From the NCBI GenBank assembly GCA_017558775.1, contig JAFYTP010000089.1, positions 1 to 62,469 of the forward strand: a stretch of DNA of 62,469 nucleotides. The letters run 5' to 3'. This DNA is from Bacteroidales bacterium (GTDB lineage: Bacteria; Bacteroidota; Bacteroidia; Bacteroidales; UBA932). Positions 17,346-59,946 of this stretch are shown here, piece after piece; positions within the stretch are counted from its first letter, which is position 1, and every line of letters begins with the position of its first letter. The position numbers were made by a program, and so were the translations under genes. Under the pieces are notes generated by a model. That model was not told the origin of the DNA and did not search any database. It saw nothing but the letters and a program-made list of their open reading frames with translations.

Positions 17346-18640
17346 GGCCGGAGGAACTGGAGATCATGGCTCCGGCGGGGAGCTTCGAAAGTCTCACCGC
17401 CGCCGTCCAGGGAGGTGCCGATTCGGTCTATTTCGGCATCGGCCATCTCAATATGCGGTCCCATTCCGCGAACAACTTCGCGGCGGAGGACCTGCCGGAA
17501 GTGATGCGGATCTGCCGCGCCTATGGACTCAAGGCCTATCTCACCCTGAACATCACCCTGTACGGTGAAGAACTGGACGAGGCCCGCCGCGTGCTGGATC
17601 TCGCCAAGGAGACGGGCGTGAACGCCGTCATCGCCTCCGACATGGCCTGCATCCTGTATGCCCGCAGCATCGGCCTGGAAGTCCATATCTCCACCCAGCT
17701 CAGCATTTCCAACGTGGAAGCCCTGCGCTTCTACGCCCAGTTCGCCGATGTCGTCGTCCTCGCGCGGGAACTGCGCCTGGAGCAGGTGAAGGAAATCCAC
17801 GACGCCATCGTCAAGGAACATATCACCGGCCCGTCCGGGAACCTCGTCCGCATCGAAATGTTCGCCCACGGAGCCTTCTGCATGGCCGTTTCCGGCAAAT
17901 GCTACCTCTCCCTCGCCGCTTACGGTGAAAGCGCCAACCGCGGCGCCTGCATGCAGGTCTGCCGCCGGGGCTACCATGTCACCGACGAGGAAACCGGCTT
18001 CGACCTGGTGGTGGACAACAAGTACATCATGTCCCCGAAGGACCTGTGCACCATCGAGTTCATGGACAAGATCATCGAGTCCGGCGTGAAGGTGTTCAAG
18101 ATCGAGGGACGCGCCCGCGCCGCCGATTACGTGAAGCGGGTCTCATCCTGCTATCGCCGCGCCGCGGATGCCGTGTGCGATGGGACGTATACTCCGGAAC
18201 TCGCGAAAGAGTTGAAGGCCGAGCTTTCCGGCGTCTTCAACCGCGGCTTCTGGGACGGCTACTACCAGGGCGCGCGTCTCGGGGAGTGGAGCGCCGTCTA
18301 CGGCAGCCAGGCCACCCGCCGGCGGGAATACATCGGCAAGGTCACCAACTGGTTCAACCGCATCAACGTGGCCGAAATCCGCGTCGAGACCGGTACTCTC
18401 CGCACCGGCGACGAAATCGCCTTCATCGGCAAGACCACCGGCTGCGTGGAGATCAAGGTCGATGACATGCGCGTGGACCTCAAACCCGCCGCCGAAGCCC
18501 CCAAGGGCACGTTCTGTTCCGTCGCGATTCCACTGGAGGACCAACCCGTGGACCATGTCAACGAGAACCCCGCGAAAGAGGCGGACGAACGCATCCACCC
18601 CCGTCGCGGGGATAAGGTTTTCAAGTGGGTCGAAGACTAG
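17342..18640 (+). CDS. U32 family protein (TrhP/RlhA-like RNA hydroxylation factor)
   Basis: A 432-residue U32-family protein. The N-terminal TIM-barrel begins ELEIMAPAGSFESLTAAVQGGADSVYFG, and the PROSITE-like U32 signature is present as EMFAHGAFCMAVSGKCYLS, followed by more cysteines (GACMQVC) that probably bind an iron-sulfur cluster. Members once called collagenases (YhbU, YegQ, RlhA) are now known for prephenate-dependent hydroxylation of tRNA or rRNA, which is the most probable role. Which RNA is modified cannot be read here. Its TAG stop is shared base for base with the stop of the convergent gene (CTAG, 18637-18640). Confidence 0.85.
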   Translation: MRPEELEIMAPAGSFESLTAAVQGGADSVYFGIGHLNMRSHSANNFAAEDLPEVMRICRAYGLKAYLTLNITLYGEELDEARRVLDLAKETGVNAVIASDMACILYARSIGLEVHISTQLSISNVEALRFYAQFADVVVLARELRLEQVKEIHDAIVKEHITGPSGNLVRIEMFAHGAFCMAVSGKCYLSLAAYGESANRGACMQVCRRGYHVTDEETGFDLVVDNKYIMSPKDLCTIEFMDKIIESGVKVFKIEGRARAADYVKRVSSCYRRAADAVCDGTYTPELAKELKAELSGVFNRGFWDGYYQGARLGEWSAVYGSQATRRREYIGKVTNWFNRINVAEIRVETGTLRTGDEIAFIGKTTGCVEIKVDDMRVDLKPAAEAPKGTFCSVAIPLEDQPVDHVNENPAKEADERIHPRRGDKVFKWVED

Positions 18641-19398
18641 AACTTCACCACCACTTTTACCGGGAAATGGTCGGAGAGTTCCGCCGTTCCCGCTGTCAGG
18701 ACTTCCGTTGAAATCACCTTCACCTGAGCGGCTTCCTTATAGGCAAAGACGTAGTCGATGCACTTGCGGGGATCCTTGGTGGAGTAGGTGAAGTCCGTTC
18801 CGGAAAGCAGGGTCCAGTTTTCCTGCATCATCCGGATGGTCTCGCTGTCCGGCTCGGCATTGAAGTCGCCACACAGGAACACGGGCTTCTTAGCGCCGGC
18901 GTAAGTTACTTTGAACCAGTCGTTCAGGGCGACCACCTGATGGATCTGGGACAGTTCCCCCGCATAATCCAGATGGACGGAGGCGAAAACGCAGTCATCC
19001 GTCTCCATGACCGCGACGCTCCGGAACTCGGAGCCATCGGACTTCGGCAGGGATATCTTGTAGCTGGCCGTCACCTTGTCACGGGTGATGACCCCGTTGC
19101 CGTAAGCGCCGCCCCGGAAGGGAAAGGCCGATGCGAACTTGTACGACCAGCCGCCCAGCTCCTCCGCCAGATCCTTCAGCTGATAATTGTCATGCCGGCG
19201 GTTGCAACTGTCCAGCTCATTGAGCGCCACGAACGCCGCTCCCGACTCCCGGATGACATCGGCAATCTCAGGGATGCTGTTGTCCACATACTTGGAGAAC
19301 ACGCCCACATTGTAGGAAACGAGGGTGATGGGACCCCGACGTTTTCCGCAGGAGACGAGCGCCAGGCACAGGAACAGGAAAGCGATCGGCTTATTCAT
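18637..19398 (-). CDS. EEP-fold (endonuclease/exonuclease/phosphatase) lipoprotein
   Basis: The last gene of the nine-gene minus-strand locus, 253 residues. The start is set at 19398, where a lipoprotein signal begins (LCLALVSCGKRR, lipobox Cys at 18), and it overlaps the preceding stop by 8 nt. Catalytic residues of the DNase I/sphingomyelinase fold are visible: the Asn in SYNVG, the metal Glu in LNELD, His in SVHLDYAG, CGDFNAEP, and the terminal SDHFPV. The fold cleaves phosphodiesters or phosphomonoesters (nucleic acid, phospholipid, inositol phosphate). The residues after the Cys are basic, not acidic, so I predict periplasmic-side anchoring. In this locus a glycan phosphodiester is a reasonable substrate, but this is inference. 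Confidence 0.8.
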   Translation of the reverse strand: MNKPIAFLFLCLALVSCGKRRGPITLVSYNVGVFSKYVDNSIPEIADVIRESGAAFVALNELDSCNRRHDNYQLKDLAEELGGWSYKFASAFPFRGGAYGNGVITRDKVTASYKISLPKSDGSEFRSVAVMETDDCVFASVHLDYAGELSQIHQVVALNDWFKVTYAGAKKPVFLCGDFNAEPDSETIRMMQENWTLLSGTDFTYSTKDPRKCIDYVFAYKEAAQVKVISTEVLTAGTAELSDHFPVKVVVKF

Positions 19399-21502
19399 GG
19401 ACCAGGCAGAAATGGGAATACAACTTGCGCTCTTTCGATTTGTTGGAAGGACGGTTGACAACGTGGGTGTCGGGATCGCCCTCTCCTTCCACACAAAGCG
19501 TGGTGGAGCCGCCACCATCCATGTTCAGGGCGTACTGGGGATTGAAGTTGTCCCGCAGGAAACGGGTCAGTTCCTTGGCGGTCATGCCTTCGCCCACGCC
19601 TGGCTGGCGGCCGTCCACGACCACCATCAGGAAATGGTTGTCGGCGGTCAGGGCCACGGCGGTCCGGGGATGGCGGACGCCCTGGTGACGGCGGGCGTCC
19701 TCGTAATCATACTTGGTCACGTCCGTCTGGAAACCCGCAAAGCTCTCGCCCACGGGGGAATAATCGTCGATAAGCATCGGGGCGCTGGAGAAGATGTTGG
19801 GCTCCGTGCAATTGGCATAGAAGGTCCGAAGTTCCTCGGTGGTCCTTCCCTTGCCGTAATAGGAGATCCGGATATCGGAACCGTCCACGAAGATGGCCGC
19901 GTCGCTCTTCCAGTTCGGGACACCGGTGGCCATCACGGTGTTGTTGGGCATGCAGGAGAGGTATTCCCCATCGACCTTTAAAACAACGGAACCGGGCTCG
20001 TAGCAGGCGTTCATCGCCACTACGGCGTCGTGCTCCTTGAACACCTCCGAAGTCGGCTTTTCCTTTTCGGTGTAGGTGAACTTGAGCTTATAGCCCGGCT
20101 TCGACATGTCCCAGTCGATGACGTTGATGAACTGCGCGCTGCCGTCGACAGAACCCGCAAACTGGCGGAACAGGATGCCGGGGGCGACTTCCTTGACGGT
20201 CCAGCCCTTTTCTTCAGGGCGATACACGAACTTGGCCGTGCGCTCCTTCAGATAGCCTTTCACATCGTCCCAGCGGTAGTACGGGAAGCCTTCCAAATCA
20301 CCAAGGTGGGCTTCCTCGCCATTGAGGAGAACCTTCACGAGGGGGTCGCCGCTCTTGCCTTTCTTGGGCTGGAAGAACACGTACTGGATGTTCGCCGCCA
20401 TCGGGGAACGGAAGGTCTGGAACCAGTAGACCAGGTCGTCCGGGTTCTCGGGGGCCTCGTCAAAGTGCTCCAGGTTCATGATCATCTCCAGGGCCATCAC
20501 CACGTGGTCGTGGCCGTAGCGGAGGTGCGCGCCGCGCTTGCCGGCGGCAAGCATCTCCGTAGCCTTCTCCACCATGTCGTCCACGATGGACGAACAAGGG
20601 GTCCGATAGGCGAAATACTCGCGGAAACGCTCATAGTTGTCAGTCTCCCAAAGGGTGGCATATTCCTCCACTGTGAAGAAATCCTTCACATCGACACGGA
20701 CATCGGCCGGCAGGCTGTTCATGCCGGCGACGAACATATACAAATCGAAGAAAGCGTCGTACGGATTCCGCAAACCCAAAGCCGCATCCGTGTTCTTGAA
20801 GAGGCGGGCAAGGACGTCCTTGTAGTTCGGGAAATGACGGAAGAAGAAGCTCTCGGAAGACTCGCCATACGGGAAGGCATACTCCGGGCCCTGATACTTG
20901 AATGGGTTCGAACCCATGTTGGGGCGCGTCGCCTGGATGTCCGTAATTCCCTGATGCTCATAGACCTTGGTCTCCGGCGACAGGCGGGAAAGCGCCGCGC
21001 AGCAGGAGGACATGCTCATGATGGAGCGGACCGAGGCGGACGAGCAGGCATCGACCATGCTCCCCTTGCCGAACACGGTCGGGAAGGACTGGACCATCGT
21101 CCGGGCGATTTCCTGATGCTGGTTCCAGCCGATTTCAGTCAGGTCGCCCACGCGGTACTGCACATAGTCCCAGAAAGGCTCGAGCTCATTCAGGAGGGCC
21201 TCACCCTTCGGGGTCAGGTTTCCCTGCTTCCGGCCTTCGGAAAGCATGTTCAGGATGACGGTATAGGCGTCGGAAGTATAGGCATAGCGGGAGCCGTGCC
21301 GGCCGTAATGGCTGATGTAAACGGCCTCGTAGCCCTTCGGAACAGGCGTGGAAGCCTTGGGCGAAAAGTCATACACGCAGTCCAGGCCGGAGGACTTGTT
21401 CCAGTCGGCGCGGACTTCTTCCCGTACGCCGAGGCGCTGGGCGCCGGCGGAAACGCTCCAACCCAGGAGCGGAACGAGAAGCAAGATCAGGTATTTTTTC
21501 AT
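19391..21502 (-). CDS. Histidine phosphatase fused to a phosphodiester glycosidase (NAGPA/DUF2233)
   Basis: A 703-residue two-enzyme fusion. After a type I signal peptide (MKKYLILLLVPLLGWSVSAGA), residues about 25-420 form a clade-2 histidine phosphatase related to MINPP/acid phosphatases: RHGSR at 68-72 carries the nucleophilic His69, and HD at 331-332 provides the proton donor. Residues about 425-703 form a NAGPA domain: AMNACY at 496-501, PMLIDD at 575-580, HPRTAVAL at 611-618, VVVDGRQ and NMDGGGSTTL at 660-669. NAGPA removes GlcNAc from GlcNAc-1-P-6-Man diesters, leaving a phosphomonoester that the phosphatase half could then remove. The start is ATG 21502, not the upstream TTG at 21517, because the signal peptide then has the usual length. 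It begins 11 nt after the agp-like stop and is predicted periplasmic. Confidence 0.85.
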   Translation of the reverse strand: MKKYLILLLVPLLGWSVSAGAQRLGVREEVRADWNKSSGLDCVYDFSPKASTPVPKGYEAVYISHYGRHGSRYAYTSDAYTVILNMLSEGRKQGNLTPKGEALLNELEPFWDYVQYRVGDLTEIGWNQHQEIARTMVQSFPTVFGKGSMVDACSSASVRSIMSMSSCCAALSRLSPETKVYEHQGITDIQATRPNMGSNPFKYQGPEYAFPYGESSESFFFRHFPNYKDVLARLFKNTDAALGLRNPYDAFFDLYMFVAGMNSLPADVRVDVKDFFTVEEYATLWETDNYERFREYFAYRTPCSSIVDDMVEKATEMLAAGKRGAHLRYGHDHVVMALEMIMNLEHFDEAPENPDDLVYWFQTFRSPMAANIQYVFFQPKKGKSGDPLVKVLLNGEEAHLGDLEGFPYYRWDDVKGYLKERTAKFVYRPEEKGWTVKEVAPGILFRQFAGSVDGSAQFINVIDWDMSKPGYKLKFTYTEKEKPTSEVFKEHDAVVAMNACYEPGSVVLKVDGEYLSCMPNNTVMATGVPNWKSDAAIFVDGSDIRISYYGKGRTTEELRTFYANCTEPNIFSSAPMLIDDYSPVGESFAGFQTDVTKYDYEDARRHQGVRHPRTAVALTADNHFLMVVVDGRQPGVGEGMTAKELTRFLRDNFNPQYALNMDGGGSTTLCVEGEGDPDTHVVNRPSNKSKERKLYSHFCLVHE

Positions 21503-21513
21503 GGTAATAATGG

Positions 21514-22830
21514 TCAAAAGGTTTCGTACAGGTCGATGGCTTCGGTAAACCGGGCCTCCAGGTCGGACAGGAGGTACAAACCATCGGCGTTGGGCGTCAG
21601 GCCCTCAAGCCGCAGGGGCAGGCTCATCGGCGGGCAGTCCGGCCCCAGGACCAAGATGCCGCGGAGCTGGTCGGCCGAAGCATAGACCAGCCAGAGATCG
21701 GCATACATCCGGCCGTCGCGGCCGAGCCACTTCTCGAAGACGACCTTGCCGCCGATCGGGGTTTTGGTCTCGATGGCGCCGGGGGCCGAATAAGGCTCCG
21801 CGCGGAGCGCCGCAAGGACACTGCCGATATTGGAGTCATGGCCGCAGAGGAACGTGAATTTCCGACCGGGTTCCCGGAGTTCGGAAAGGAGTTCCTGCAG
21901 CATCGGATGCGCCACGTTCACCGCCATGGTCGGCAGGCCGAAAAGGATGTCCTGATACCGGTCCTTGATGGAGGCGATATCCTCCCAGTCCTTCCGGGTC
22001 AGGTTGTGTCCGAAAGCGGCTTTCCGGTCATCGGGTTCTTCATAGTATTGGAGCGTCAGGGCGTCGGAAGCGGAACAGGCCAGCTTCAGGCCACCGCTCA
22101 TGCCCGGCTCATTGTTCAGCAGGAAACTGACGGCCGTAGGAATCGAGATGAAGGCGGTCGTATCGTTCCGGCCGGCCGGGCTGGCCTTGATGTCCAGCAC
22201 CTTCTCCATCAGCGCATACTGCCGCTTCAGCGGTCCCTCGGGGGTGCCCATCGCGTAGAGTTCCTCCAAGGCCTTCGACAGGCACGCGTCGGAATCCTTC
22301 GTAATCTGCGGGTTGAACACCGGGTCCATCGTCCCCAGCGGAGCGTGCTGCTCCACGACGATATCGGCCATCGGGAACATCCCAGCGGCGAACATCCGGG
22401 CCGTAGCGCGGGTGCGCTGGATGGAATTGGCATAGAACCGGACAGTCCCCTCCTCCGGCACGGCGTACTTGGGGAAGAATCCCTCCTTCACCAGCCACTC
22501 CCGGAAGAATTGGCCCATCTCCGCCTCCAGCGCGCCGCCCTTCAAGGACAGTTCGCCGGGGGCCGATGTCCACGAGAACCACTCGTGCGGCGTGATCCGC
22601 GACAGCACAGATCCGGGGCCGCTGATGGGCGACCGGATGTTGTGCCGACTCAGGATCACCATCTCGTCCAGCGCGTAACGGTCGGAGAAGCCGTCGGGAC
22701 GGACCATGAATCCCTTCGAAGCCGTTTCCGCAGTCCCCGGTGCGAGCCGGGGACTGCAGGCGGCAAGAAGAAGGAACGTAATAAGAAGGCAGATTCTGCC
22801 CACTATGGGTGTATCAAGTCTACGCTTCAT
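21514..22830 (-). CDS. Glucose-1-phosphatase-like histidine acid phosphatase, lipoprotein
   Basis: A 438-residue clade-2 histidine phosphatase that resembles Agp more than AppA phytase. The catalytic motif is SRHNIRSP (His63; Agp has RHNLRAP), and the C-terminal block GHDSNIGSVLAAL (His331, Asp332), with TPIGGKVVFEKW and YASADQLR further on, follows the E. coli Agp pattern segment by segment. It has a lipoprotein signal (FLLLAACSPRL, Cys25); no acidic residues follow the Cys, so it is probably periplasmic. It would strip phosphate from sugar phosphates. It overlaps the SGNH gene upstream by 4 nt and is 11 nt from the fusion gene. Confidence 0.88.
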   Translation of the reverse strand: MKRRLDTPIVGRICLLITFLLLAACSPRLAPGTAETASKGFMVRPDGFSDRYALDEMVILSRHNIRSPISGPGSVLSRITPHEWFSWTSAPGELSLKGGALEAEMGQFFREWLVKEGFFPKYAVPEEGTVRFYANSIQRTRATARMFAAGMFPMADIVVEQHAPLGTMDPVFNPQITKDSDACLSKALEELYAMGTPEGPLKRQYALMEKVLDIKASPAGRNDTTAFISIPTAVSFLLNNEPGMSGGLKLACSASDALTLQYYEEPDDRKAAFGHNLTRKDWEDIASIKDRYQDILFGLPTMAVNVAHPMLQELLSELREPGRKFTFLCGHDSNIGSVLAALRAEPYSAPGAIETKTPIGGKVVFEKWLGRDGRMYADLWLVYASADQLRGILVLGPDCPPMSLPLRLEGLTPNADGLYLLSDLEARFTEAIDLYETF

Positions 22831-23513
22831 TTCGTATGGTTGCTAAGAACCTTTTTCAAAATCGGCTGGATGACGCCCTCCATGGCCGTATAACCCGCCG
22901 CGTTGGGATGGATAGAATCCCGCTGATACGCTTTCTTCAAGCCCTTCGCGTCATCGACCAGCACCGAATAGTAATCGGCATACGGAATCCCTTCCGCGGC
23001 AGCCCAACTCTTGATCATCCCGTTGAGCTCGATGATTCTGTCCTCCGGACGGAAATCGGGCAGTTTCGGGAAAGAGTTGGAGGGCGGAACGGAGCCCACG
23101 ATAACATCGATATGAGCCTTGCGGGCCATCTCGGCCATCTTCTTGATACGCTCCAGGATGCTCTCGGAATCATAGGCGGCGATGTCGTTGGTGCCGCCTT
23201 CGATGACTACGCAGTAAGGGTCCAGGTCGATGACATCCTGCTGGAAACGGGCCAGCATATCCGTTGTCTTGTTACCGCTGATACCCTTGCCAACGTAACT
23301 GTTGGACTGGAAGAACGTGGGATGTCCCACGCCCTCCCGGTCCCAGTTCCAGGTGATGCTGTCGCCGATGAATACGGCCGCCGGACCCTTGTGGGAACCG
23401 TCGAGCACCACCGGTTTTTCCGGCTCGGGAAGCTCCCGGGCAGGATCCTTCTGACAGGAAAGCGCCAGAAGCACCCCTGCCAAAAGGACCGGCCAGGAAA
23501 AACGTATCATCAT
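22827..23513 (-). CDS. SGNH/GDSL hydrolase lipoprotein
   Basis: A 228-residue SGNH-fold esterase. The lipobox is LLALSCQKD with an acidic residue soon after the Cys, as in surface-exported Bacteroidota lipoproteins. Catalytic blocks are FIGDSITWNW (Ser), KGISGNKT, GGTNDI, and DSIHPNAAGY (Asp and His). It is a distant relative of the SGNH hydrolase at 5216-5881. In a glycan locus such proteins usually remove O-acetyl or other acyl groups so that later enzymes can act. It is 18 nt after the NAGPA gene and overlaps the phosphatase gene. Confidence 0.85.
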   Translation of the reverse strand: MMIRFSWPVLLAGVLLALSCQKDPARELPEPEKPVVLDGSHKGPAAVFIGDSITWNWDREGVGHPTFFQSNSYVGKGISGNKTTDMLARFQQDVIDLDPYCVVIEGGTNDIAAYDSESILERIKKMAEMARKAHIDVIVGSVPPSNSFPKLPDFRPEDRIIELNGMIKSWAAAEGIPYADYYSVLVDDAKGLKKAYQRDSIHPNAAGYTAMEGVIQPILKKVLSNHTK

Positions 23514-23531
23514 GAATTGGTTGGTTTTTTC

Positions 23532-24638
23532 TTATTTCTTGAGGATCACGAAATGGACGTTGCGCTTCCGCTCGCCCGCGTGATCATACGTATTGTTATC
23601 GCAAGGATAATTTACCACATGGGTGTCAGGATCGCCTTCGCCCTTGACGCAGAGCGTGGAGGAACCGCCGCCGTCCATATTCAGGGCGTACTGCGGGTTG
23701 AACCACTTGACCAGGAACTTGGTGAGTTCGTAGGCGTTCATGCCCTGGCTTTTCTGCCTGCCGTCCACCACGAACATGATGAAGTGGTTGTTCTCCGTGA
23801 GCGCCACCGCGGTGCGGGGGTGCTTCACCCGCTGATGATGGTTCAGATCTTCGGACTTCAGCTTATTCGCCTGCGTCAAGGAGAGCGACATGTTGCAGAA
23901 GGTCTCCCCGACCGGCTCGTAGTCGTCGATCAGCATCGGCGCGCTGGAGATGATATTCGGAATACTGCCAGCAAGGCTGGAGTAATACTTCCGCTGCATC
24001 GAAACCGCCTCGGCATAGCTCTTTCCTTTGATGTCCTTGATCTTGCCGTCGCGCGCAGGAGAACCCGCGAAGATGATGCCCAGACCACGTTCGCCATCGG
24101 AAGTGAATGCTGCCTCGCTCTTCCAATTGTCGACACCGGTATCGCCGATGGTGATATTCGGAATCTGATATTTCGTGCTTCCGTCCACACGGACGAAGAT
24201 GGATTTCACCTCGTAATTGGCGTTCATCGCCGCAATCGTGTTGCTGTTCAGCTTGAAAGCGTCAGACACCACGACCGTGGGCTCCGTAAAGAGCAGCTTC
24301 GCCTGATACTGGGTCTTGTTCAAGTCCAGGTCGATCACGAACACTTCCTCATGCACACCGGTAATGTCATCCTTGCCCGAGAAGGTGTAATAAACGACAC
24401 CGTCATCAATGGTCTTTTCAGTCCAGCCTGCGCCGGACGGCTTGACCACTTTGCCGCGGTTGGCATCCCAGGGATGGGTTTCCGTACCTCCACCGTTTCC
24501 TCCCTGTTCTCCCCCCTGTTCTCCCCCGTTGGGATTCGGAGGCGGAGGGAGCGGAAGAGGATCCTTGCCCCCGCAACCGGTTAGTAGCAGCGGGGGGAGG
24601 ATCGCAAGAAAGATAATTAACGCTTTTCGAAGATTCAT
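23532..24638 (-). CDS. Phosphodiester glycosidase (NAGPA/DUF2233) lipoprotein
   Basis: A 368-residue surface-type lipoprotein (lipobox LLLTGCGGKD, Cys22), then a flexible linker rich in Pro and Gly with repeated GGEQ units (residues 38-51), then a complete NAGPA domain at about 80-368. Conserved residues match those of the C-terminal half of the fusion at 19391: AMNANY, APMLIDDYEPVGETF, HPRTAVAL at 273-280, VVDGRQ and NMDGGGSSTL at 320-329. The human homologue uncovers mannose-6-phosphate by removing GlcNAc from its phosphodiester. The Asp after the Cys region predicts display on the cell surface, so this may be the first enzyme to meet the substrate. A single base separates it from the preceding stop. 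Confidence 0.88.
   Translation of the reverse strand: MNLRKALIIFLAILPPLLLTGCGGKDPLPLPPPPNPNGGEQGGEQGGNGGGTETHPWDANRGKVVKPSGAGWTEKTIDDGVVYYTFSGKDDITGVHEEVFVIDLDLNKTQYQAKLLFTEPTVVVSDAFKLNSNTIAAMNANYEVKSIFVRVDGSTKYQIPNITIGDTGVDNWKSEAAFTSDGERGLGIIFAGSPARDGKIKDIKGKSYAEAVSMQRKYYSSLAGSIPNIISSAPMLIDDYEPVGETFCNMSLSLTQANKLKSEDLNHHQRVKHPRTAVALTENNHFIMFVVDGRQKSQGMNAYELTKFLVKWFNPQYALNMDGGGSSTLCVKGEGDPDTHVVNYPCDNNTYDHAGERKRNVHFVILKK
24486..24527 (-). repeat. GGEQ-coding tandem repeat in the NAGPA linker
   Basis: Short in-frame repeats (plus-strand unit about ctgttctcccc) encode GGEQGGEQGGNGGG between the lipobox and the catalytic domain. The unit could change in number by slippage without breaking the frame only if whole 9- or 12-base units are gained or lost. 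Confidence 0.6.
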
Positions 24639-24639
24639 G

Positions 24640-26592
24640 CTATCTGAGTTTAGGTGTATCGCCGCTGAAGTCCCAGATCTCAGCGCTCCAGCCGATACGC
24701 TGAGCCACCTGGCTGAGGGTCTCGCCGGAGGCGGAGGCCTTGCCGTGGTAACCGAAAGCGTAGTTGCCGGCGCCCGGAGTCATCGGGTGTTCAGGGTCGG
24801 CGTCCTCCTGGTCGAACGGCTCATAGCCGCCGGCCGTCATGTTCGCTTCGCAAAGACTGAAGTCCATGTCCACCTTGCGGACGCAGCCCACCAGGTAGTT
24901 CTTGAAGGCCGTCTGGCCCACCACGGTGGCGCTTCCGTAATGCTCGACCGCGTCGGGCACGAAGTCGGAACTGAGCTTGTCGTTCCAGGCGATGCAGTAC
25001 TCGATGTGGTTCTGCGGATCCTGGTTCGTGCAGTTGTTCTTGTTGGACTTCTGGCCAGCCACGGCGCGACCGACGATACCACCATAGATGAACTGGGTGG
25101 TCACGGTCGCGGTGGAGTAGCAGTTGATGATGGAGCTGCCGGTCGCCACCAGGTCGCCGCAGATACCGCCGGCGATGGAAGCCGAGGTGACCACGGAACC
25201 GGCCGTCCAGCAGTCGCTGACCTGCACGCCCGCACCGGCATCCAAGCCGAACAGGCCGCCGACCATCTGGCCCTTGGCGTCGATGACGACGTCAGCGGAG
25301 CTTCTGGTGATGGTGCACTCGCGGGCCGTACCGAACAGACCGCCGACGTTGTTGCCGGCCGAGCTGGTGACGGTGCCCTGGACATGGACATTGTCCACTT
25401 CACAAGGCTTTCCGCCCGTTCCGCCGTAGCCGCCCAGGATGCCGCAGCCCTTGGTGGAGGCATTGATGGTCGCGTTCTTGAAGGTCACGTCGTGGCACTT
25501 GCCGAACAGCACGCCGAAGAAGCTCGGGTAGGAAGCGGCAGAGCAGGTGAAGTTGGAGATGGTATGGCCGTCGCCGTCGAAGTCGATTTCCTTGTCATAC
25601 GGGCTGGCCGCATTGACAGGCTCCCACTCCATGCCGGTCATGTCGATGTCGGCGCCCAGCTTGAACCAGCGCTTCTCACCGGCGGCGAGGTCATCCTTCA
25701 TATAGCCGAGCTGCTCGGCGTTCATGATCACCCAAGGCTTGGCCTCGGTGCCCTTGCCGGAAGCATAGTGGCTCGGATAGACCCAGCCCTTGGCGTCGGG
25801 GGTGAAAGTGTTCACCTTACCACTCATCAGGGTGGCTTCCTTGGTGAAGACGACTTCCTTCTCGATGGAGTTCTTGTCGGTCTTCACAGCCACGGTCAGG
25901 GCGGCGTCGGCAGGGACCACAACCTCGTTCCAGGAAGTGGTCATCCAGGCCGTGACGATGTGGTCCGCGGCCAGGGTGGCGTCCGTCAGTTCGAGTTCCA
26001 GCTTGTTCACCTTCGCGTCGCCGTTACCCTTGTAGAACAGCGGGGTGTCGGAGGAGAGGGTGATGTGGCTCACGGCGTTCACAGTGTCCGGCAGGGCCAG
26101 GACCATCTTGATGACGCCCGTCTGACGGAGGGCGCCCTTGTGCTCCGCGGCCCACTCGGGGCTGAAGGAGAAGCTCAAGTATTCATCGACATTGTCGAGG
26201 GAAGCCGCGTACTGGACGTGGTCCACGGAACCGTTCCCGTTCTGGGCCTGCTTGCTCCAATCGGCGCTGGCGGCCTTTTCGCCCGGGTACAGGATGGTGA
26301 ACTTTTCGCCCTTCACAGGCTTGCCGACGAACTCGGCGTACTTGCCTGAGAAGCCCTCCTTGATGGAGAAGACCTGGGAGTCCTCCTCACCGACGACGGT
26401 GAGCTTGTCACCGGCCGACCAGGACCAGGAGAAACCCACGCTGGCGCCAACTCTGGTGTCATCCTCAGGAATGCGGGCCGTGATGGTGATCAGGTCCGAA
26501 CCGTCCTGCGGGGCCGGCAGTTCCTTCACTTCCTTGTTGCAGGAGACGAGGGCCGCACCGGCGATCATTGCTGCGAGATATATCTTTTTCAT
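24640..26592 (-). CDS. Fimbrillin-like/GLUG-repeat surface lipoprotein
   Basis: A 650-residue lipoprotein (AALVSCNKEVKE, Cys18, acidic residues after it: surface type). Residues about 30-280 resemble the fimbrillin/Mfa-like family (ITARIPEDDTRVGAS, then alternating strands). Residues about 285-650 are a beta-solenoid of GLUG-type repeats, for example VGGLFGTARECTITRS and VGGLFGLDAGAGVQVSDC. The C-terminal 45 residues (NYAFGYHGKA to IWDFSG) recur in the next gene. By position after susCD it would be a surface glycan-binding protein, but binding is inferred only. Confidence 0.75.
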   Translation of the reverse strand: MKKIYLAAMIAGAALVSCNKEVKELPAPQDGSDLITITARIPEDDTRVGASVGFSWSWSAGDKLTVVGEEDSQVFSIKEGFSGKYAEFVGKPVKGEKFTILYPGEKAASADWSKQAQNGNGSVDHVQYAASLDNVDEYLSFSFSPEWAAEHKGALRQTGVIKMVLALPDTVNAVSHITLSSDTPLFYKGNGDAKVNKLELELTDATLAADHIVTAWMTTSWNEVVVPADAALTVAVKTDKNSIEKEVVFTKEATLMSGKVNTFTPDAKGWVYPSHYASGKGTEAKPWVIMNAEQLGYMKDDLAAGEKRWFKLGADIDMTGMEWEPVNAASPYDKEIDFDGDGHTISNFTCSAASYPSFFGVLFGKCHDVTFKNATINASTKGCGILGGYGGTGGKPCEVDNVHVQGTVTSSAGNNVGGLFGTARECTITRSSADVVIDAKGQMVGGLFGLDAGAGVQVSDCWTAGSVVTSASIAGGICGDLVATGSSIINCYSTATVTTQFIYGGIVGRAVAGQKSNKNNCTNQDPQNHIEYCIAWNDKLSSDFVPDAVEHYGSATVVGQTAFKNYLVGCVRKVDMDFSLCEANMTAGGYEPFDQEDADPEHPMTPGAGNYAFGYHGKASASGETLSQVAQRIGWSAEIWDFSGDTPKLR

Positions 26593-26604
26593 ACCGGATC
26601 GTGT

Positions 26605-28308
26605 TTAATTGTAGAACTCATTCTCGTCGAAATCCGGAAGCTGGCCGCCAGGATTGACGTCAGGATTCTCCACGGGAGCGGAAGCACCCTTGAAGAACGG
26701 CAGATTGCCGGAGAAGTCCCAAATGGACGGGTCCCAACCCAGATCCTTGGCCACCTGGGATGCAGTGAGGCCAGCGGCCACAGCCTTGCCGTGATACGGG
26801 AAGTTGTAATTGGTACCGCCGGTGGACTGAACGGATTCTTTCAGCGGAGAATCCGGGCTTGCGTTATCCTGGTCATAGAGCACGTTGAATCCGTTGCCGG
26901 GGCAGTCGGAGAAGACCAGGTCGGCCTTCCGCCTGCAATCCTGCAGGTAGTTCTTGACGGAGGTGAAGCCCACAATGGCGCCGGCGCTGTAGTGCACGCC
27001 GTCATCGGTCACGTCGGAGTAGATAGCCTCGTTCCAGGCGATGCACTTCTCGATGTGATTCTTGATGTCAAGGCCTTCACCGGTCTTCTGTCCCTGGGCC
27101 GCGTCTCCCACGATGCCGCCGTACTTGAAGTTGGCATGGACACGGGCCGTGGAGTAGCAGTTCCGGATGACGACTTCGCTGTAGGCCGCGTTGTTGGCGG
27201 CGTTGCCCGCGATGCCGCCGACCATGCGGTTACCGGAGATGTCGCCGGCCGACCAGCAGTTGGAGACGGTGGTGTGCTTCGGGGCCTTGCTGTTGTCATA
27301 GCCATAGATACCGCCGGAGTCGTACTTGGTGGAAACGATGGTAACATCGGCCGAGCAGGCGTCGATGGTCGCGTCGATGACGACACCGAACAGTCCGCCA
27401 GTACCGTGCGCGACGGTGTTGGTAATCTTGCCGCTCACATACACGTGGCTCACCTCGACCGGGTCGTCGTTGGAGCCGCCATAGGCGCCCAGGATACCGA
27501 TCGGACCAGAAGCGTTGGTGATATTGGCATTCGAGACCTCCAGGTCATACAGCTTGCCGACCACGGCGCCGAAGAGGCTGGTGGTGCCGGTGAAGTTGGA
27601 GATGGTGTGGCCGTTGCCGTTGAAATCGAACTTCTTGTAGGGCTCGAAAGTGTTGGCGGGCTCCCAGTCGGTGACACCGCTCATGTCGATGTCATTTTCC
27701 AGGATGAAATACACCAGGCTGCCCTCGATCATCTGAGAGCCGATCGCCTTCAGGTCATCGACCGTAGCAATGGGATAGGGGTTGTTCTCGGTGCCGGGGG
27801 CGTTGGGATCGAACTCGCTCTTGCAGAGGAGCACATACGCCGCCAGCGTATCGGCGACCGCCCAGTTGTCCGTTCCGGTGGCGTTGTCGATGGTGACGGG
27901 AAGGATGTAGTTCACGCCGTCTTCCAGGCCGGAAGCAGTCACCTTGACCTTGGCGGTCGTGGAGGACTTGCCGTAGCGCGGCATCATCACTTCGTTGGTC
28001 ACGAACTCGTAGGCCGAGCCGGGGCACATCTGGTAAGCCGTTCCGTTCGCGCTGTTGTATTTCTCCACCAGCTCGGGATCGGCCTTGAAGGTGAAGTTCA
28101 TCACGGCGTCGGAGACGTTGCTGCCCTGGGCGCAGGCCCGCAGGCTGTAGGTCTTGCTGGCGTCGGGAGCCAGTTCGACGAGCTGTTTCTCGCCGGGGAT
28201 ATCGGCATAGAAGATGCCCTTCATGGTTCCGGGAACCGGTTCCTTTTCTCTATCGCAGGAAACTGCGAGAATAGGAAGGGTCAGGAGAAGGTAAAATATC
28301 TTTTTCAT
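26605..28308 (-). CDS. DUF1735/GLUG-repeat surface lipoprotein
   Basis: A 567-residue lipoprotein; the start is ATG 28308 (MKKIFYLLLTLPILAVSCDREKEP), which places the lipobox correctly, although an ATG 12 nt upstream is also possible. The acidic residues after Cys18 suggest surface exposure. The N-terminal part (about 20-165) is a DUF1735-like domain with its typical VNYILPVTIDNATG motif. The C-terminal part repeats the GLUG solenoid and the tail (NYNFPYHGKA to IWDFSG) of the 24640 protein. DUF1735 proteins are often glycan-binding partners in PULs. It follows susD by 13 nt. Confidence 0.78.
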   Translation of the reverse strand: MKKIFYLLLTLPILAVSCDREKEPVPGTMKGIFYADIPGEKQLVELAPDASKTYSLRACAQGSNVSDAVMNFTFKADPELVEKYNSANGTAYQMCPGSAYEFVTNEVMMPRYGKSSTTAKVKVTASGLEDGVNYILPVTIDNATGTDNWAVADTLAAYVLLCKSEFDPNAPGTENNPYPIATVDDLKAIGSQMIEGSLVYFILENDIDMSGVTDWEPANTFEPYKKFDFNGNGHTISNFTGTTSLFGAVVGKLYDLEVSNANITNASGPIGILGAYGGSNDDPVEVSHVYVSGKITNTVAHGTGGLFGVVIDATIDACSADVTIVSTKYDSGGIYGYDNSKAPKHTTVSNCWSAGDISGNRMVGGIAGNAANNAAYSEVVIRNCYSTARVHANFKYGGIVGDAAQGQKTGEGLDIKNHIEKCIAWNEAIYSDVTDDGVHYSAGAIVGFTSVKNYLQDCRRKADLVFSDCPGNGFNVLYDQDNASPDSPLKESVQSTGGTNYNFPYHGKAVAAGLTASQVAKDLGWDPSIWDFSGNLPFFKGASAPVENPDVNPGGQLPDFDENEFYN

Positions 28309-28321
28309 GACTCGTTGCATC

Positions 28322-30118
28322 TTAGAAGGTTAAACCGTCGTTCCAGCCGGGATTCTGCGTGAGGGCGCCGCCCGTCAGGTTACGTTCGTTCGTCGGAATG
28401 GGATAGAGATAATCGCGGTTGTCGTCCCATTTGCAAGTGAGATTCTTGTAAGGGTTGACATTGCCGGATTCACCGTTGCTCAGGATGAAGTCCGTGCCAC
28501 CCACCTTGTATTTGGCAGGAGCCGTGCTGGCTGGGGCGGTATCGCCCGTGTACAGGAGCACGTCAGGCACACCGTCGTTATTGAGGTCATACTCGCCCGG
28601 GCCCGGGAAGTACATGCCGTAGTACTGCTTCTCGAAGATCTTGCCTTCCTTCCAACGGATGATGTCATAGTAGCGGAAGCCTTCCTGGGCCAGCTCCACG
28701 GCACGCTCGCGGCGGATCTCAAGGATGACACCCTTGTTGGAACCGCTCACGTTCTGGTAACCGCCCCAATCAGGGTTGGTGAGGAAAGGATCCGGATTCG
28801 CGTTGGCGGTCTCCATGTTCAGGTGAGGCAGGCCCACGCGGTCGCGGAGCTTGTTCACGGAGAGTTCCAGGTCGGCCTGGGTGAGGGTGCCGGCCTCGGC
28901 CTTCGCCTCGGCGTAGTTCAGCAGCACCTCGGCCGCGCGGAAGATGATCAGATCCACGTCAGAACCGCTGTAGATGTCCTTGTCGATGCCCATCACGTAC
29001 TTGATCGGATGATAACCGGTCATGCAGTGCAGGAAGTTGGGCGGGCAGGGCGTGCTGTCACCGATGCGGGTGTAACCGGGCGTGCGGATGGTCTGGGCCA
29101 GGCGCGGGTCGCGATTCTGCACCTCCGTGATGAAGTCCATCGTCTCCCAACCGGGCTGGTCGGTGAAACGGGAACCATCAGCCATCAGGTAGCTGGCGAC
29201 CAGCTTGCGGGTCATGCCGTGACGGCCCATCGTGGCGGAAATCATCGTGTTGTTGGCGCTGTGCGTCACGTTGTAAGCGGCGTTATAGTTGCGGGCCATG
29301 ATCACTTCGTCCATGTTTTCCGTAGCGGAAGAGGTGGTGAACAGGCTGTAATAGGCCTTCTTGGCACCGCCGGCAACATGGATACCGTAACCGCTGGAAG
29401 CCATGAACTCCTCGGACACCTTGGCGCATTCGTCCAGATACCACTTGTAGTCATGGGCGTTGGCGCCGTAGTCAAACTCGGTATGATACTTCCGGAAAGT
29501 GCCTTCGAACAGGAGGAAGCGGGACTTGAGCGCCATAGCGGTCCACTTGGTGACCTCGTAGGCGTTCTTGGTCGACGGCAGGTTGGCGATGGCGAAGTCG
29601 ATGTCCTCGATCATCTTTTCCATGATGAACTCACGGGAGTCGCGGGGACGGTTCAGGGCTTCCGTATCGGCGGAACCTACGGGTTTGTCGTACCACGGAA
29701 CGTCGCCGAAACGCTTCACTTTCTCAAAGTAGAAATAGGCGCGGAAGAAACGAGCGAGGCCCTCATACTTGGCGCGGACGGCCGCATCGGGGCACTTCGG
29801 CAGGTTCAGCAGAAGTTCGTTCACGTTACGGAGACTGCCCCAGCTCCAGCCGCTGCCGGAGGCGGGAATCTGACGGGTACCCTTCAGTTCATCGGTCAGG
29901 CCCATCTGGATATAGGTGTCGGCATCCTCCATGAAGAGGTCGCCGGCGCCCGGCATCATGCCGTAGAAATTGACGCTGAAGGCCTTGAGTTCCTTCTCCG
30001 TCTTGAAGAAGGTTTCAGGGGTCACGCGGTCCTGGGGAACAACGTCCAGGAGGTCGTCACAGCTGACGACGGTGGTGCAGGCCAGGAGGGAAAGCAGGAG
30101 ATATGCTGTCTTTTTCAT
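28322..30118 (-). CDS. SusD/RagB family nutrient-binding lipoprotein
   Basis: A 598-residue outer-surface lipoprotein that caps its SusC partner and binds the substrate. The lipobox is CTTVVSCDDLLD (Cys20) with acidic residues directly after it. SusD features include LDVVPQDRVTPETFF, RAYFYFEKVKRFGDVPWYD, and the C-terminal RERAVELAQEGFRYYDIIRWK and NPGWNDGLTF. The start at 30118 (MKKTAYLLL) was preferred to the ATG at 30130, which touches the susC stop. It is the partner of the 1094-residue SusC before it. Confidence 0.92.
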   Translation of the reverse strand: MKKTAYLLLSLLACTTVVSCDDLLDVVPQDRVTPETFFKTEKELKAFSVNFYGMMPGAGDLFMEDADTYIQMGLTDELKGTRQIPASGSGWSWGSLRNVNELLLNLPKCPDAAVRAKYEGLARFFRAYFYFEKVKRFGDVPWYDKPVGSADTEALNRPRDSREFIMEKMIEDIDFAIANLPSTKNAYEVTKWTAMALKSRFLLFEGTFRKYHTEFDYGANAHDYKWYLDECAKVSEEFMASSGYGIHVAGGAKKAYYSLFTTSSATENMDEVIMARNYNAAYNVTHSANNTMISATMGRHGMTRKLVASYLMADGSRFTDQPGWETMDFITEVQNRDPRLAQTIRTPGYTRIGDSTPCPPNFLHCMTGYHPIKYVMGIDKDIYSGSDVDLIIFRAAEVLLNYAEAKAEAGTLTQADLELSVNKLRDRVGLPHLNMETANANPDPFLTNPDWGGYQNVSGSNKGVILEIRRERAVELAQEGFRYYDIIRWKEGKIFEKQYYGMYFPGPGEYDLNNDGVPDVLLYTGDTAPASTAPAKYKVGGTDFILSNGESGNVNPYKNLTCKWDDNRDYLYPIPTNERNLTGGALTQNPGWNDGLTF

Positions 30119-30130
30119 ATGCGCGTTCAT

Positions 30131-33100
30131 TTAAAGGGTGATGTCTACGCCGAACATGAGTTTCTTCTGCCAAGGGTAGATCCGGAGATTGCCATTGGTC
30201 TGGGCCATTTCCGGGTCGATGTACTTGGAGTGCAGGCCGGGGGCCCAGAAGAAGAGGTCTTCGCCCGTGAAGTAGATACGCAGACGGTCCATGCCGATCT
30301 TACGGGAGATCTTCTCCGGAAGGGTGTAGCCGAAGGTCAGGTTCTTCACGCGGAGATAGCCGATGTTCTGCAGGTAACGGTCGTTCGTCTCGGTAAGTTC
30401 ACGTCCGGCACCGACGCCGGCCACGTAACCTCTGGCGCGGGGAAGGTAACCGTCCGGATTCTCCTCGGACCAGTACATCGTCTGGAAATCCTTGGGGATG
30501 AACGTGGCGAACGGACGGGCATAGAGGCTCCAGAACTGACGGACCTCCGTCGCCGGATACCAGTCCATCTTACCGATACCCTGGAGGAACACGGACAGGT
30601 CGAGTCCGGCCCAGGAAGCGCCCAGATTGACACCGAAATTGTAGCGAGGCTGGCTGTTGCCGATAACCTTGTAATCACCGCTGTCATCGACCTTTTCGGC
30701 GCCCTTGTTGATGACACCGTTGTTATCCAGGTCGGCGTACTGCAAGTCACCGGCCCGGAGTCCCGGCGCACCGGTGACGGGGTTGATGGTGCCCGTGCTG
30801 GCGACGATGATACCGTTCACCTTGGACTGGTCCACGGCGGCGGACCAGGCGGCCGCATCCTCATCGGTGGCGAACAGGCCCACGATGTGGTAACCCCAGA
30901 TGTCACCGTACTTCTGACCCTCCCAGTAAGTCTTCGCGAAGAGCTTGTCGGGGTTGTTGAAGCGGGTGATGTAAGAGACATAATCGCTGAACAGCACGCT
31001 GGCGTTGTAGTAGAAAGGCTTGCCGCCCAGCATGAAGGAATCCTTCCAGCCGAGATTGAACTCATAACCCATGGTCCTGAGGTCGGCGATATTCTCCTTC
31101 GGAGCGGTGCTGTAACCGTAGGTGGCGGGGAGAACCTCGCCGGCGGTGAGCATGTCCTTGGTGTCACGGATGTAACCCTCGGCCGTAAAGTCGAGACGGC
31201 CGTTGAGGAAGGTCATGTCGAGACCCAGGTTCTTCTGGACGGAGCGCTCCCAAGTCAGGCCGGAGGAAACCGGAGCGGAGATGGTGGCCACGGAAGGCCG
31301 GGCGCCGCCGAACAGGTAGGAGGCCTGGGAGCCCGTGTTGATGGTACGGATGGCGGGATAGTAGTCGCTCATCTGCTGGTTGCCCAGCTGACCGAAGGAG
31401 AAACGGAGCTTGGCGTTGTCCCACCAGGTCTTGAGCGGCTCGAAGAACGGCTCCTCGCTGATTCTCCAACCCAGGGAGAAGGACGGGGAGAAGACCCAGC
31501 GGCTGCCGCGGAGGAAACGGGAAGAACCGTCATAACGGCCGTTCAGTTCCAGGAGGTACCGGTTCTTGTAGTCATAGTTGATACGGGCGAAATAGCCGGC
31601 CGTCCTGACTTCGTTCTGGCCGCCGGACACTTCCATCCGCTTGTTGCCGTCTGCATCCGCACCCACCAGGTTGAGGTCGTTGAGTTCGTATGAATACAGG
31701 TCGTAACCGATTGCCTCGAGATCCTTGATGTGACGGGTCTCATAGTTGACACCGGCCATCAATTTCAGGTTGTGGATGTCATTCCAGCTCTTAACATAGG
31801 TCCCATACAGGTTGGCGGCCTTGTAAATCTGGGTGTTCATCGCCTCCGTCAGCTTGTTCTCGAAAGCGGCGCCCGTGTCCATGACCTCGATGACACCGGG
31901 ATAAGTGGAATACTCGCCGGGCATCGTGCGGTTCTGGTAGCGGGTGAGCTTGAGGGCGTAGGTGAAGTCACCCTGGATCGTCATGCCCTCGAAGGGCTTG
32001 ATGGTCACGTCGATGGTGTTGCTGAGGTTGTCCACCTTGTCGGTGTTGTTGTCACCGTTGTTCAGCGCCATCATCAGACCGTCCATCAAGGCGTTTCCGT
32101 TGTAGGTGGTCTTGTAGAGCACCGTGCCGTCCGGGTTGTAGGCCGGATAGCTGGCCGGGGCATGGGCGGAAGCGCCGTACAGGGAATTGTTGATACCACC
32201 GCGGCCCGGATAGAAGTAGGAGCTGTAGAAATAGCTCAGGTTTTCGCCGATACGCAGCCACTTGGTGACGTCAAAGCCCACCTTCGCGCGGATGTTATAT
32301 CGGTCATAATGGTCGGGTCTGATGTTGAACATACCCTGCTCGTAGGTGTAACCGCCGGAGATGAGGTAGTTCACATGGTCGGTGGCGCCGCTCGCGGAAA
32401 TGGTGTGGCTCGAGGTAGGCTTGATGTCCTTGTACAGGACGTGCCACCAGTCGGTGTTCGCGTAATAATTATATACGTCTCTGCCGGACTGGTCCTGGCC
32501 GATGACCACCCAAGGACGCTCGGGGTTCTCCACCTTGTCATTGCGGCGGTTCCAAAGCTCGACCATGTCCTCGTCGGAATAATTATACAGGCTGGAACCG
32601 TTATAGGCGCTCATGAACAGGTTGCTCAGATAGACGGAGTAGTAACCGCGGGTCTCCCAGTCGGTGGAAGCCGTCGGGGCGGTGAAACCGGCGCGGCCGC
32701 TGTAGGTGACCGTCGCCTTTCCGTCCTTCGCCTTGGTGCCGTTCTTGGTCGTGACAAGGATCACGCCCGCGGAACCTCTCGCACCGTAGATGGCCGCCGC
32801 GGCGGCATCCTTGATGACGGAGATGCTTTCCACGTCGGCCGGGTTGAGGTACTGAAGGTCACCTTCCACACCGTCCACCAGCACGAGCGGGTTGCCGCCG
32901 TTGATGGAGTTGCGGCCGCGGATGTTGATCGAGGCGGCCTGGCCGGGACGGCCGGAAGCGGAAGTGACATTCAGGCCCGGGACGGTACCCTGCAGCATGT
33001 GACCGACGTCCAGGGCGGAACGGTCCTTGAGGTCATCGGCCTTGACCACGGACACGGCGCCCGTGAGGTTGGCCTTCTTCGTGGTACCGTAACCGACGAC

Positions 33101-33415
33101 GACGGCATCTTCCAGGATGTTATGGTCTTCCTCGAGCAAAATGATGATTTGCTGGCGTCCCTGGACGGGAATCTGCTGCGACTGGTAACCCAGGCAGGAG
33201 ACCTCGAGGACAGCGTTGGGATCGACGGTGATGGCGAAGGATCCATCGACGTCGGTGACTGTGCCGGTACCGCCGGAAAGCACGGCCGCCCCGATGACGG
33301 GACCGACGGCATCCGACACCGTACCGCGCACCGTGATCTTTTGGCCATAGGCGCCAAAAGAGACGACCATACCCATCAGTATGGCCAGTACGCTGAACAG
33401 TTTCTTGGAGAACAT
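30131..33415 (-). CDS. SusC/RagA family TonB-dependent transporter
   Basis: A 1094-residue outer membrane transporter, first gene of the nine-gene locus. The start is ATG 33415 (MFSKKLFSVLAILMGM, signal peptide to about GAYGQ). Domains in order: CarboxypepD-reg-like (about 25-100, VRGTVSDAVGPVIGAAV), plug (about 110-220, with VVVGYGTTKK, INIRGRNSI, PLVLVDG, ISVIKDAAAAAIYGARG) and the 22-strand barrel ending FGVDITL. It would import oligosaccharides in a TonB-driven way with the SusD that follows. Its upstream region is shared with the divergent DUF6377 regulator. Confidence 0.93.
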   Translation of the reverse strand: MFSKKLFSVLAILMGMVVSFGAYGQKITVRGTVSDAVGPVIGAAVLSGGTGTVTDVDGSFAITVDPNAVLEVSCLGYQSQQIPVQGRQQIIILLEEDHNILEDAVVVGYGTTKKANLTGAVSVVKADDLKDRSALDVGHMLQGTVPGLNVTSASGRPGQAASINIRGRNSINGGNPLVLVDGVEGDLQYLNPADVESISVIKDAAAAAIYGARGSAGVILVTTKNGTKAKDGKATVTYSGRAGFTAPTASTDWETRGYYSVYLSNLFMSAYNGSSLYNYSDEDMVELWNRRNDKVENPERPWVVIGQDQSGRDVYNYYANTDWWHVLYKDIKPTSSHTISASGATDHVNYLISGGYTYEQGMFNIRPDHYDRYNIRAKVGFDVTKWLRIGENLSYFYSSYFYPGRGGINNSLYGASAHAPASYPAYNPDGTVLYKTTYNGNALMDGLMMALNNGDNNTDKVDNLSNTIDVTIKPFEGMTIQGDFTYALKLTRYQNRTMPGEYSTYPGVIEVMDTGAAFENKLTEAMNTQIYKAANLYGTYVKSWNDIHNLKLMAGVNYETRHIKDLEAIGYDLYSYELNDLNLVGADADGNKRMEVSGGQNEVRTAGYFARINYDYKNRYLLELNGRYDGSSRFLRGSRWVFSPSFSLGWRISEEPFFEPLKTWWDNAKLRFSFGQLGNQQMSDYYPAIRTINTGSQASYLFGGARPSVATISAPVSSGLTWERSVQKNLGLDMTFLNGRLDFTAEGYIRDTKDMLTAGEVLPATYGYSTAPKENIADLRTMGYEFNLGWKDSFMLGGKPFYYNASVLFSDYVSYITRFNNPDKLFAKTYWEGQKYGDIWGYHIVGLFATDEDAAAWSAAVDQSKVNGIIVASTGTINPVTGAPGLRAGDLQYADLDNNGVINKGAEKVDDSGDYKVIGNSQPRYNFGVNLGASWAGLDLSVFLQGIGKMDWYPATEVRQFWSLYARPFATFIPKDFQTMYWSEENPDGYLPRARGYVAGVGAGRELTETNDRYLQNIGYLRVKNLTFGYTLPEKISRKIGMDRLRIYFTGEDLFFWAPGLHSKYIDPEMAQTNGNLRIYPWQKKLMFGVDITL

Positions 33416-48375: not shown

Positions 48376-48377
48376 AT

Positions 48378-52839: not shown

Positions 52840-52840
52840 C

Positions 52841-57201: not shown

Positions 57202-57212
57202 CTCAGTGCCCT

Positions 57213-58793: not shown

Positions 58794-58805
58794 TGCAGCG
58801 TGAAC

Positions 58806-59936: not shown

Positions 59937-59946
59937 GATGAGCCCT

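Follow-up and report, generated by a model that had tools for sequence, protein, structure and literature searches.

We analysed a stretch of 62,469 nucleotides from a Bacteroidales bacterium (GenBank assembly GCA_017558775.1, contig JAFYTP010000089.1), referred to here as the window. Nine genes at positions 18637 to 33415 are best read as one operon for the uptake and dismantling of a glycan with glycosyl-1-phosphodiester links, a reading to which we assign a probability of roughly 0.68. Beginning at position 33415 on the minus strand, the genes encode SusC, SusD, two surface lipoproteins (S7 and S6), a protein of the phosphodiester glycosidase family NAGPA, an SGNH esterase, an Agp-like phosphatase, a histidine phosphatase joined to a second NAGPA domain (referred to as the fusion) and a protein of the EEP family. 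This reading is the best one because NAGPA genes cluster with histidine phosphatase genes in related genomes, because the two domains are fused in both orders and because SusC/SusD and EEP genes occur in the same operons. An original prediction made from the window alone had described the locus as a SusCD operon free of glycoside hydrolases (GH) and directed at a phosphoglycan. Its observation is confirmed, its general interpretation is likely and its details are partly supported.

The fusion protein was searched against its own genome and 60 relatives, and its phosphatase or NAGPA part was matched in 42 of the 61 genomes. NAGPA was present in 48 of the 61 same-genus genomes (own included), whereas outside the genus 8 of 40 genomes from the order had it. 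In genomes G000–G036, 21 of 68 NAGPA matches, distributed over 11 genomes, were located within 5 kb of a listed histidine phosphatase match. The expected number was 1.36 (2000 random draws, maximum 6). Seven of the 68 directly overlapped a phosphatase match. Co-occurrence of NAGPA, phosphatase and SusCD genes in relatives had been named as a check in the original prediction, and it was found. A profile of the window-type NAGPA matched 14 of 393 genomes of the order, own included, and all matches outside the own genome were to distant relatives (best other match 1.4e-37, own 9.8e-152); since few of the 393 belong to the same genus, this indicates the rarity of the specialised NAGPA outside the genus and not its frequency inside.

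A contig scan with an alignment of the fusion provided 77 loci (L111–L187) from the best 80 of 191 candidates. The operon runs of these loci contained S6 and S7 genes in 30 cases each, SusC or SusD in 28, EEP in 26 (18 of the window type, 8 of a second type), SGNH in 23, transporters of the major facilitator superfamily (MFS) in 12, Agp in 8 and GDPD in 2; many fetched stretches end within the operon, which affects these numbers. Six loci (L111–L114, L116 and L117) repeat the order SusD-S7-S6-NAGPA-(SGNH)-Agp-fusion-EEP. SusC is seen in L112–L114, and the stretches of L111, L116 and L117 end in SusD. L112 and L116 lack SGNH in this order, whereas L111, L116 and L117 have two S6 genes. The repetition of the gene order argues that the set is not a product of chance. 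Gene sets of this kind are also found in related bacteria of the rumen: 34 of the 77 record titles name a stomach compartment (water buffalo 15, yak 8, goat 5, roe deer 4, sheep 2) and another 34 carry RUG or RUI labels, which we take to denote rumen catalogues. One title names horse faeces and eight are uninformative.

A fusion of the two domains is present in 57 of the 77 loci, as phosphatase-NAGPA in 36 and as NAGPA-phosphatase in 22, with both forms in L146. More distant NAGPA-phosphatase proteins were found in L088, L090, L091 and L108–L110. In a tree built from 73 phosphatase domains, those of phosphatase-NAGPA fusions occupy three separated places, and the well-supported branches force at least four changes of this label; gains and losses are indistinguishable on this tree, and some long branches are possibly joined falsely. 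These changes suggest that the domain arrangement was altered repeatedly while the pairing persisted. A third partner arrangement, an Agp-type domain fused to a MINPP-like phosphatase domain, was observed at L140:4720-7245.

The operon comprises the following genes, together with a divergent neighbour given last:

30131–33415, minus strand: SusC/RagA TonB-linked outer-membrane transporter (TIGR04056 1.5e-253, over its cut-off; start codon ATG at 33415)
28322–30130, minus strand: SusD-like surface lipoprotein (PF07980 2e-47)
26605–28320, minus strand: S7, surface lipoprotein with a BT_3987-like N-terminal domain and GLUG-type repeats (PF08522 2.9e-18)
24640–26592, minus strand: S6, surface lipoprotein with GLUG-type repeats (profile match to 3n6z 3.7e-51)
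23532–24638, minus strand: predicted NAGPA phosphodiester glycosidase, lipoprotein (PF09992 9.3e-22)
22827–23513, minus strand: SGNH/GDSL esterase lipoprotein (PF13472 1.3e-28; solved relative 3p94 1.2e-37)
21514–22830, minus strand: Agp-like histidine acid phosphatase of the glucose-1-phosphatase type (PRK10173 1.4e-96, under its cut-off; 6rmr 7.1e-76)
19391–21502, minus strand: fusion of an N-terminal histidine phosphatase and a C-terminal NAGPA domain (7r5y 5.4e-37; PF09992 2.1e-24)
18637–19398, minus strand: EEP-family phosphatase/phosphodiesterase lipoprotein (PF03372 6.2e-19; conserved ATG start at 19398)
33641–35299, plus strand: DUF6377 protein, divergent from SusC, a candidate regulator judging by its position (PF19904 6.9e-69)

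The tight, co-directional packing that had been predicted was borne out with exactly the predicted outer limits, which are the ATG of SusC and the end of the EEP gene. The first seven junctions, counted from SusC, measure 0, 1, 12, 1, 18, -4 and 11 nt. At the eighth, the EEP gene overlaps the fusion gene by 8 nt if the ATG at 19396–19398 is used, which is the start common to the EEP homologues. A longer open reading frame from 19518 was rejected, as the homologues do not support that start. A hydrophobic stretch followed by a cysteine, which by the lipobox rule marks a lipoprotein, is present at the N-termini of SusD, S7, S6, NAGPA, SGNH, Agp and EEP, and the fusion and SusC have a signal-like N-terminal stretch. 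All nine products would therefore act outside the cytoplasm.

The adjacent SusC and SusD genes are the pair typical of SusCD polysaccharide utilization loci. The arrangement also resembles Bacteroides Sus-type loci in its surface lipoproteins, its exported enzymes, its single operon and its divergent putative regulator. It differs from them in that a Pfam search (E<0.01) found no GH or polysaccharide lyase (PL) family in the nine proteins, which include just an SGNH esterase, and in that a phosphodiester glycosidase is the candidate for depolymerisation. The predicted lack of glycoside hydrolases thus stands for the nine genes and fails as a rule, since a few related operons carry them (two genes for each of GH78, GH97 and GH20, and single genes for GH31, GH10 and GH130).

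Both NAGPA domains score well above the curated PF09992 cut-off of 25 bits, the separate protein with 78.5 bits and the C-terminus of the fusion (residues 509–704, numbered from the TTG at 21517) with 87.1 bits. The separate protein aligns over its core to the solved NAGPA structures 6pki (6.8e-9) and 3ohg (7.1e-7), the latter presumably BACOVA_00430. In an alignment of 18 NAGPA sequences including the fusion domain, R275, N320, D322 and G323–325 are invariant and D292 and S326 nearly so. The core of the human-type enzyme (R before T/S-A, DG, NxDGGGS) is therefore retained. Human NAGPA is the uncovering enzyme, and its reaction guides the one predicted here: judged by family membership, both domains are putative phosphodiester glycosidases. 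The setting is different from that of the uncovering enzyme, since in these SusCD operons NAGPA is joined either to GLUG-type repeats or, in both domain orders, to a histidine phosphatase. A parallel pairing, NAGPA fused to surface calcineurin-like phosphoesterases, is reported in one paper (PMC11488536), and in the related operon L143 a calcineurin-like phosphoesterase gene adjoins the fusion gene. Another paper reports NAGPA in a pair with a different enzyme, next to repeats that bind the cell wall (PMC12419801).

The N-terminal domain of the fusion (residues 33–431) reaches the Pfam family His_Phos_2 with 0.0019, which is under the cut-off; the Agp-like protein reaches it with 4.2e-14. We nevertheless assign the domain to the histidine phosphatases because it matches the solved histidine acid phosphatase 7r5y (5.4e-37) and the MINPP structure 4fdt (2.3e-28). 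It resembles MINPP across the whole domain and contains the RHGSRY form of the RHGxRx motif. The proton-donor motif that defines MINPP is HAE, whereas the fusion has an HD in the sequence GHDH, as 7r5y also has HD. Among 75 phosphatase domains no HAE was found (HD in 72, HSN in 1, 2 unread); RHG is present in 72, so that most of these domains retain what an active enzyme would need at both sites. Fusion to NAGPA is a further difference from MINPP. The orthologue of the fusion in L071 is 78% identical. In the own genome 12 matches to the fusion protein (phosphatase or NAGPA part) were obtained, two of those listed being on the window contig, and a tandem pair of phosphatase genes is located at C11:4818-7380. 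This type of phosphatase looks expanded in the genome.

The Agp-like protein was predicted to be a sugar phosphatase, which agrees with its best solved relative, the glucose-1-phosphatase 6rmr, and with its HDSN motif, the motif of E. coli Agp. Its PRK10173 score of 323.7 bits is below the NCBIfam equivalog cut-off of 425, and it has a lipoprotein-like start unlike the E. coli enzyme. Its substrate can therefore not be read from the name.

The similarity of the fused phosphatase to MINPP structures raises the question of whether the operon scavenges phytate or phospholipid head groups, with inositol-phosphate phosphatases that supply phosphate rather than carbon. Inositol phosphatase forms part of the name that NCBI gives to the Agp family, and the two operons with GDPD genes also fit this explanation. 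We consider it improbable given the consistent lack of the MINPP motif in the domains that were read. Furthermore, NAGPA, SGNH and the GLUG proteins would have no evident role in it, although the phosphatase and NAGPA share one polypeptide, and a few related operons have added sugar hydrolases.

A profile built from 20 EEP proteins matches the solved structures 3l1w (9.9e-22), 3mpr (2e-20), 3g6s and 4c1r (1.2e-19), all four within 9.9e-22 to 1.2e-19; 3mpr and 4c1r give identical alignments and are probably one protein. The residues N, E, H, D-N and D-H, which are expected to serve EEP catalysis, are invariant in the 20 sequences. Assignments to a toxin-like enzyme (NCBIfam CDT-B family, 21.8 bits versus a cut-off of 189) and to a DNA-repair enzyme (exodeoxyribonuclease III, 16.2 bits versus 99.05) were rejected. 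The original prediction of a phosphodiesterase holds for the EEP family (PF03372, Exo_endo_phos) and is unsecured for the activity: 4c1r is named mannosyl-6-phosphatase, and with this enzyme among the four best solved relatives the EEP protein may be a monoesterase and need not be a phosphodiesterase.

This structure, which we take to be part of the yeast-mannan system of B. thetaiotaomicron, leads to a second explanation. The operon could serve the use of yeast or fungal phosphomannan, with NAGPA removing mannose-1-phosphate caps and EEP and the histidine phosphatase acting on mannose-6-phosphate. The matches of the EEP profile to 4c1r and 3mpr and the BT_3987-like N-terminal domain of S7 would be in line with it, although the EEP profile is no nearer to 4c1r than to 3l1w and 3g6s. 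Yeast-mannan loci are defined by alpha-mannosidases (GH92, GH76, GH38, GH99). We found no alpha-mannosidase family in the nine genes or among the 25 families listed out of 49 that were detected in 63 of 73 extra operon genes. The only mannose-linked family among those listed is the GH130 in L149, located behind an iPGM gene. Phosphomannan, which the original prediction had included among its candidate substrates, is therefore not favoured, and we regard this explanation as unlikely.

Within the reading as a phosphodiester-glycan operon, the sequence itself shows which genes are present, how they are ordered and conserved, and which domains are fused; the individual reactions, the cell location and the order of steps would follow from what is known of the families. 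We propose the following sequence of events. SusC/SusD and the two GLUG-type lipoproteins would bind and import the glycan. Hydrolysis of the sugar-1-phosphate bond would fall to the two NAGPA domains, that of the lipoprotein and that of the fusion; one sugar would be released, and the other would keep the phosphate as a monoester. This phosphate would then be taken off by the histidine phosphatase domain of the fusion, aided by EEP and the Agp-like phosphatase. EEP, if it resembles 4c1r, would be a second sugar phosphatase, and Agp would handle sugar-1-phosphates, which would arise if the diester were cut on its other side. SGNH would take off acyl groups, and the remaining pieces would need just ordinary downstream glycosidases.

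A variation of this scheme is indicated by L176 (the same locus as L075), in which the order is SusC-SusD-S7-S6-NAGPA-SGNH-MFS-fusion-EEP, with the MFS gene in the slot of Agp. The five scanned MFS proteins (L075, L119, L129, L137, L145) are closest to the organophosphate transporters PgtP, GlpT, UhpC and UhpT. Some species might accordingly strip the phosphate outside the cell and others, those with MFS, might import phosphorylated sugar. A strict mutual exclusion of Agp and MFS was rejected, since L153, as the sole such locus, has both in the operon. The genome of the window gave only weak or partial matches to the L176-type MFS protein, with 30% identity, and a 91-residue piece at 54% at a contig edge.

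Several points weigh against the proposed phosphodiester-glycan operon. In G000–G036, 47 of the 68 NAGPA matches have no listed phosphatase within 5 kb, and in 40 stretches many genes for NAGPA sit in other settings (e.g. L089, L092, L099, L102–L106). The NAGPA and phosphatase counts in the 77 loci are partly given by construction, as the fusion was the scan query; the proximity count in G000–G036 does not have this bias. SusC/SusD is unseen in 49 of these operon runs, partly because stretches end early, and only the few operons counted above contain Agp. All matches of the MFS proteins are below curated cut-offs (best TIGR00881, 225.6 versus 407.75 bits) and denote similarity only. NAGPA relatives may be active on other links, and the named solved kin of the fused phosphatase are inositol-polyphosphate phosphatases, which would suit phytate equally. 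The proposed reactions and the substrate are predictions from sequence.

Concerning the substrate, a microbial cell-wall or capsular phosphopolysaccharide seems likelier to us than yeast phosphomannan, with less confidence than we have in the operon itself. The extra operon genes include, besides the hydrolases listed above, a calcineurin-like phosphoesterase and the two GDPD genes, and one GH97 exceeds the cut-off for retaining alpha-galactosidase. Some of the extra GH genes, e.g. the GH130 gene, may be neighbours and not members. Phosphopolysaccharides of Gram-positive walls and capsules are variable in make-up. With moderate to low confidence, the related operons may be said to resemble this variability, in that their phosphodiester core is fixed and the hydrolases around it, of rhamnose, galactose and hexosamine type, vary. 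Rhamnose-rich streptococcal polysaccharides are reported to contain glycerol phosphate (PMC12235971).

A different source of phosphodiesters would be phosphorylated N-glycans of the GlcNAc-P-Man type, from the host or a protist, degraded jointly with a second SusCD cluster at 46078–61188 on the plus strand. This cluster contains GH3, GH2, alpha-fucosidase-like, GH18-like and BT_3987/LamG genes. Its closeness to the operon would fit, as would the membership of the human uncovering enzyme in the NAGPA family. We consider this very unlikely: G003, a genome with the full operon, keeps GH3 and GH2 and has no match to GH29, SusC2, SusD2, GH18 or LamG in the next 39 kb (E<=1e-20, one genome). A fixed link between the operon and the neighbouring GH18 cluster was rejected on the same grounds.

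More tentatively, and rather doubtfully as a whole, the operon might represent a class of SusCD systems in ruminant-gut Bacteroidales that depolymerises a glycan via its phosphodiester instead of its glycosidic links. The fused NAGPA-phosphatase would then be a two-step enzyme, cutting repeat units and removing phosphate from cell-wall or capsular phosphopolysaccharides of other microbes, and some relatives would import the sugar phosphate by an antiporter.

The individual proteins come from known families placed in a familiar type of locus; what appears new is their combination and the fusion in both domain orders. No such locus was found in a search of open-licence papers, mostly at the level of titles and openings of abstracts, which is weak evidence. 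If the phosphodiester-glycan reading is correct, the operon offers a genetic handle on the breakdown of phosphate-containing glycans by gut Bacteroidales, a process that annotation based on GH and PL families would miss because the cutting enzyme lies outside them. The fusion would be a bifunctional enzyme, phosphodiester glycosidase and phosphatase, and as it exists in two domain orders, their coupling could be tested directly. The gene set would also be a marker for degraders of phosphoglycans or microbial walls in the rumen, where the use of nitrogen and phosphorus is affected by how microbial cells turn over.

The two surface proteins were predicted to be GLUG proteins. In the window neither reaches Pfam GLUG (E<0.01): S7 matches only BT_3987-like_N and S6 matches nothing. 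Their homologues do match GLUG (9.9e-21 and 3.9e-19), so that the assignment holds through them; the calls of SusC, SusD, both NAGPA domains, SGNH, the phosphatases and EEP stood as made. Homologues of S7 adjoin SusD in related loci. The match of the S6 group profile (A4) to 3n6z covers only profile positions 274–518, the repeat region, and the label of that structure, 'putative immunoglobulin A1 protease', was for this reason not transferred to S6. The repeats of S6 and S7 might form a beta-helix with an enzyme activity of its own, and an unrecognised lyase or hydrolase might be present there. S6 repeats also occur in S6-NAGPA and S6-SGNH fusions (L085, L178, L179, L181). L085 lies in the own genome on another contig (C70:1-10739) and encodes an S6-NAGPA fusion of 1032 residues and an S6-SGNH fusion of 1081 residues, which possibly belong to the same system as the window operon. 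The nearest solved structures of the SGNH protein are of the GDSL-like lipase/acylhydrolase type.

The window is the entire contig C59 of a draft genome of 2.63 Mb in 128 contigs (completeness 87.7%), and Rfam and tRNA scans gave no hits in it. Homologues of the DUF6377 protein adjoin the operon in L071 and L075, and a relative is present in 4 of the 77 fetched loci. The flanks of the operon are housekeeping-like, with polyprenyl synthetase and U32 peptidase genes on one side and RecO, Ham1 and S41 peptidase genes on the other. In nine loci the flanking U32 and polyprenyl-synthetase proteins are 91–95% identical, and the fusion is 78–80% identical in L111–L117; the operon, being less conserved than its flanks, either evolves faster or was exchanged. 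L115 has conserved flanks (polyprenyl synthetase 91%, U32 94%, RecO 88%, S41 86% identity) with only the fusion and EEP between them. In this locus (L115:7450-12824), at the same chromosomal site, the genes from SusC to Agp and the DUF6377 gene are absent and the RecO-S41 segment is apparently inverted; either the genes were truly lost or the assembly produced this picture. Within the second SusCD cluster of the window, a TonB-plug (SusC-like) protein at 53665–57201 (plus strand) contains a C-terminal OmpA domain (residues 1080–1160), which may anchor the transporter to the cell wall.

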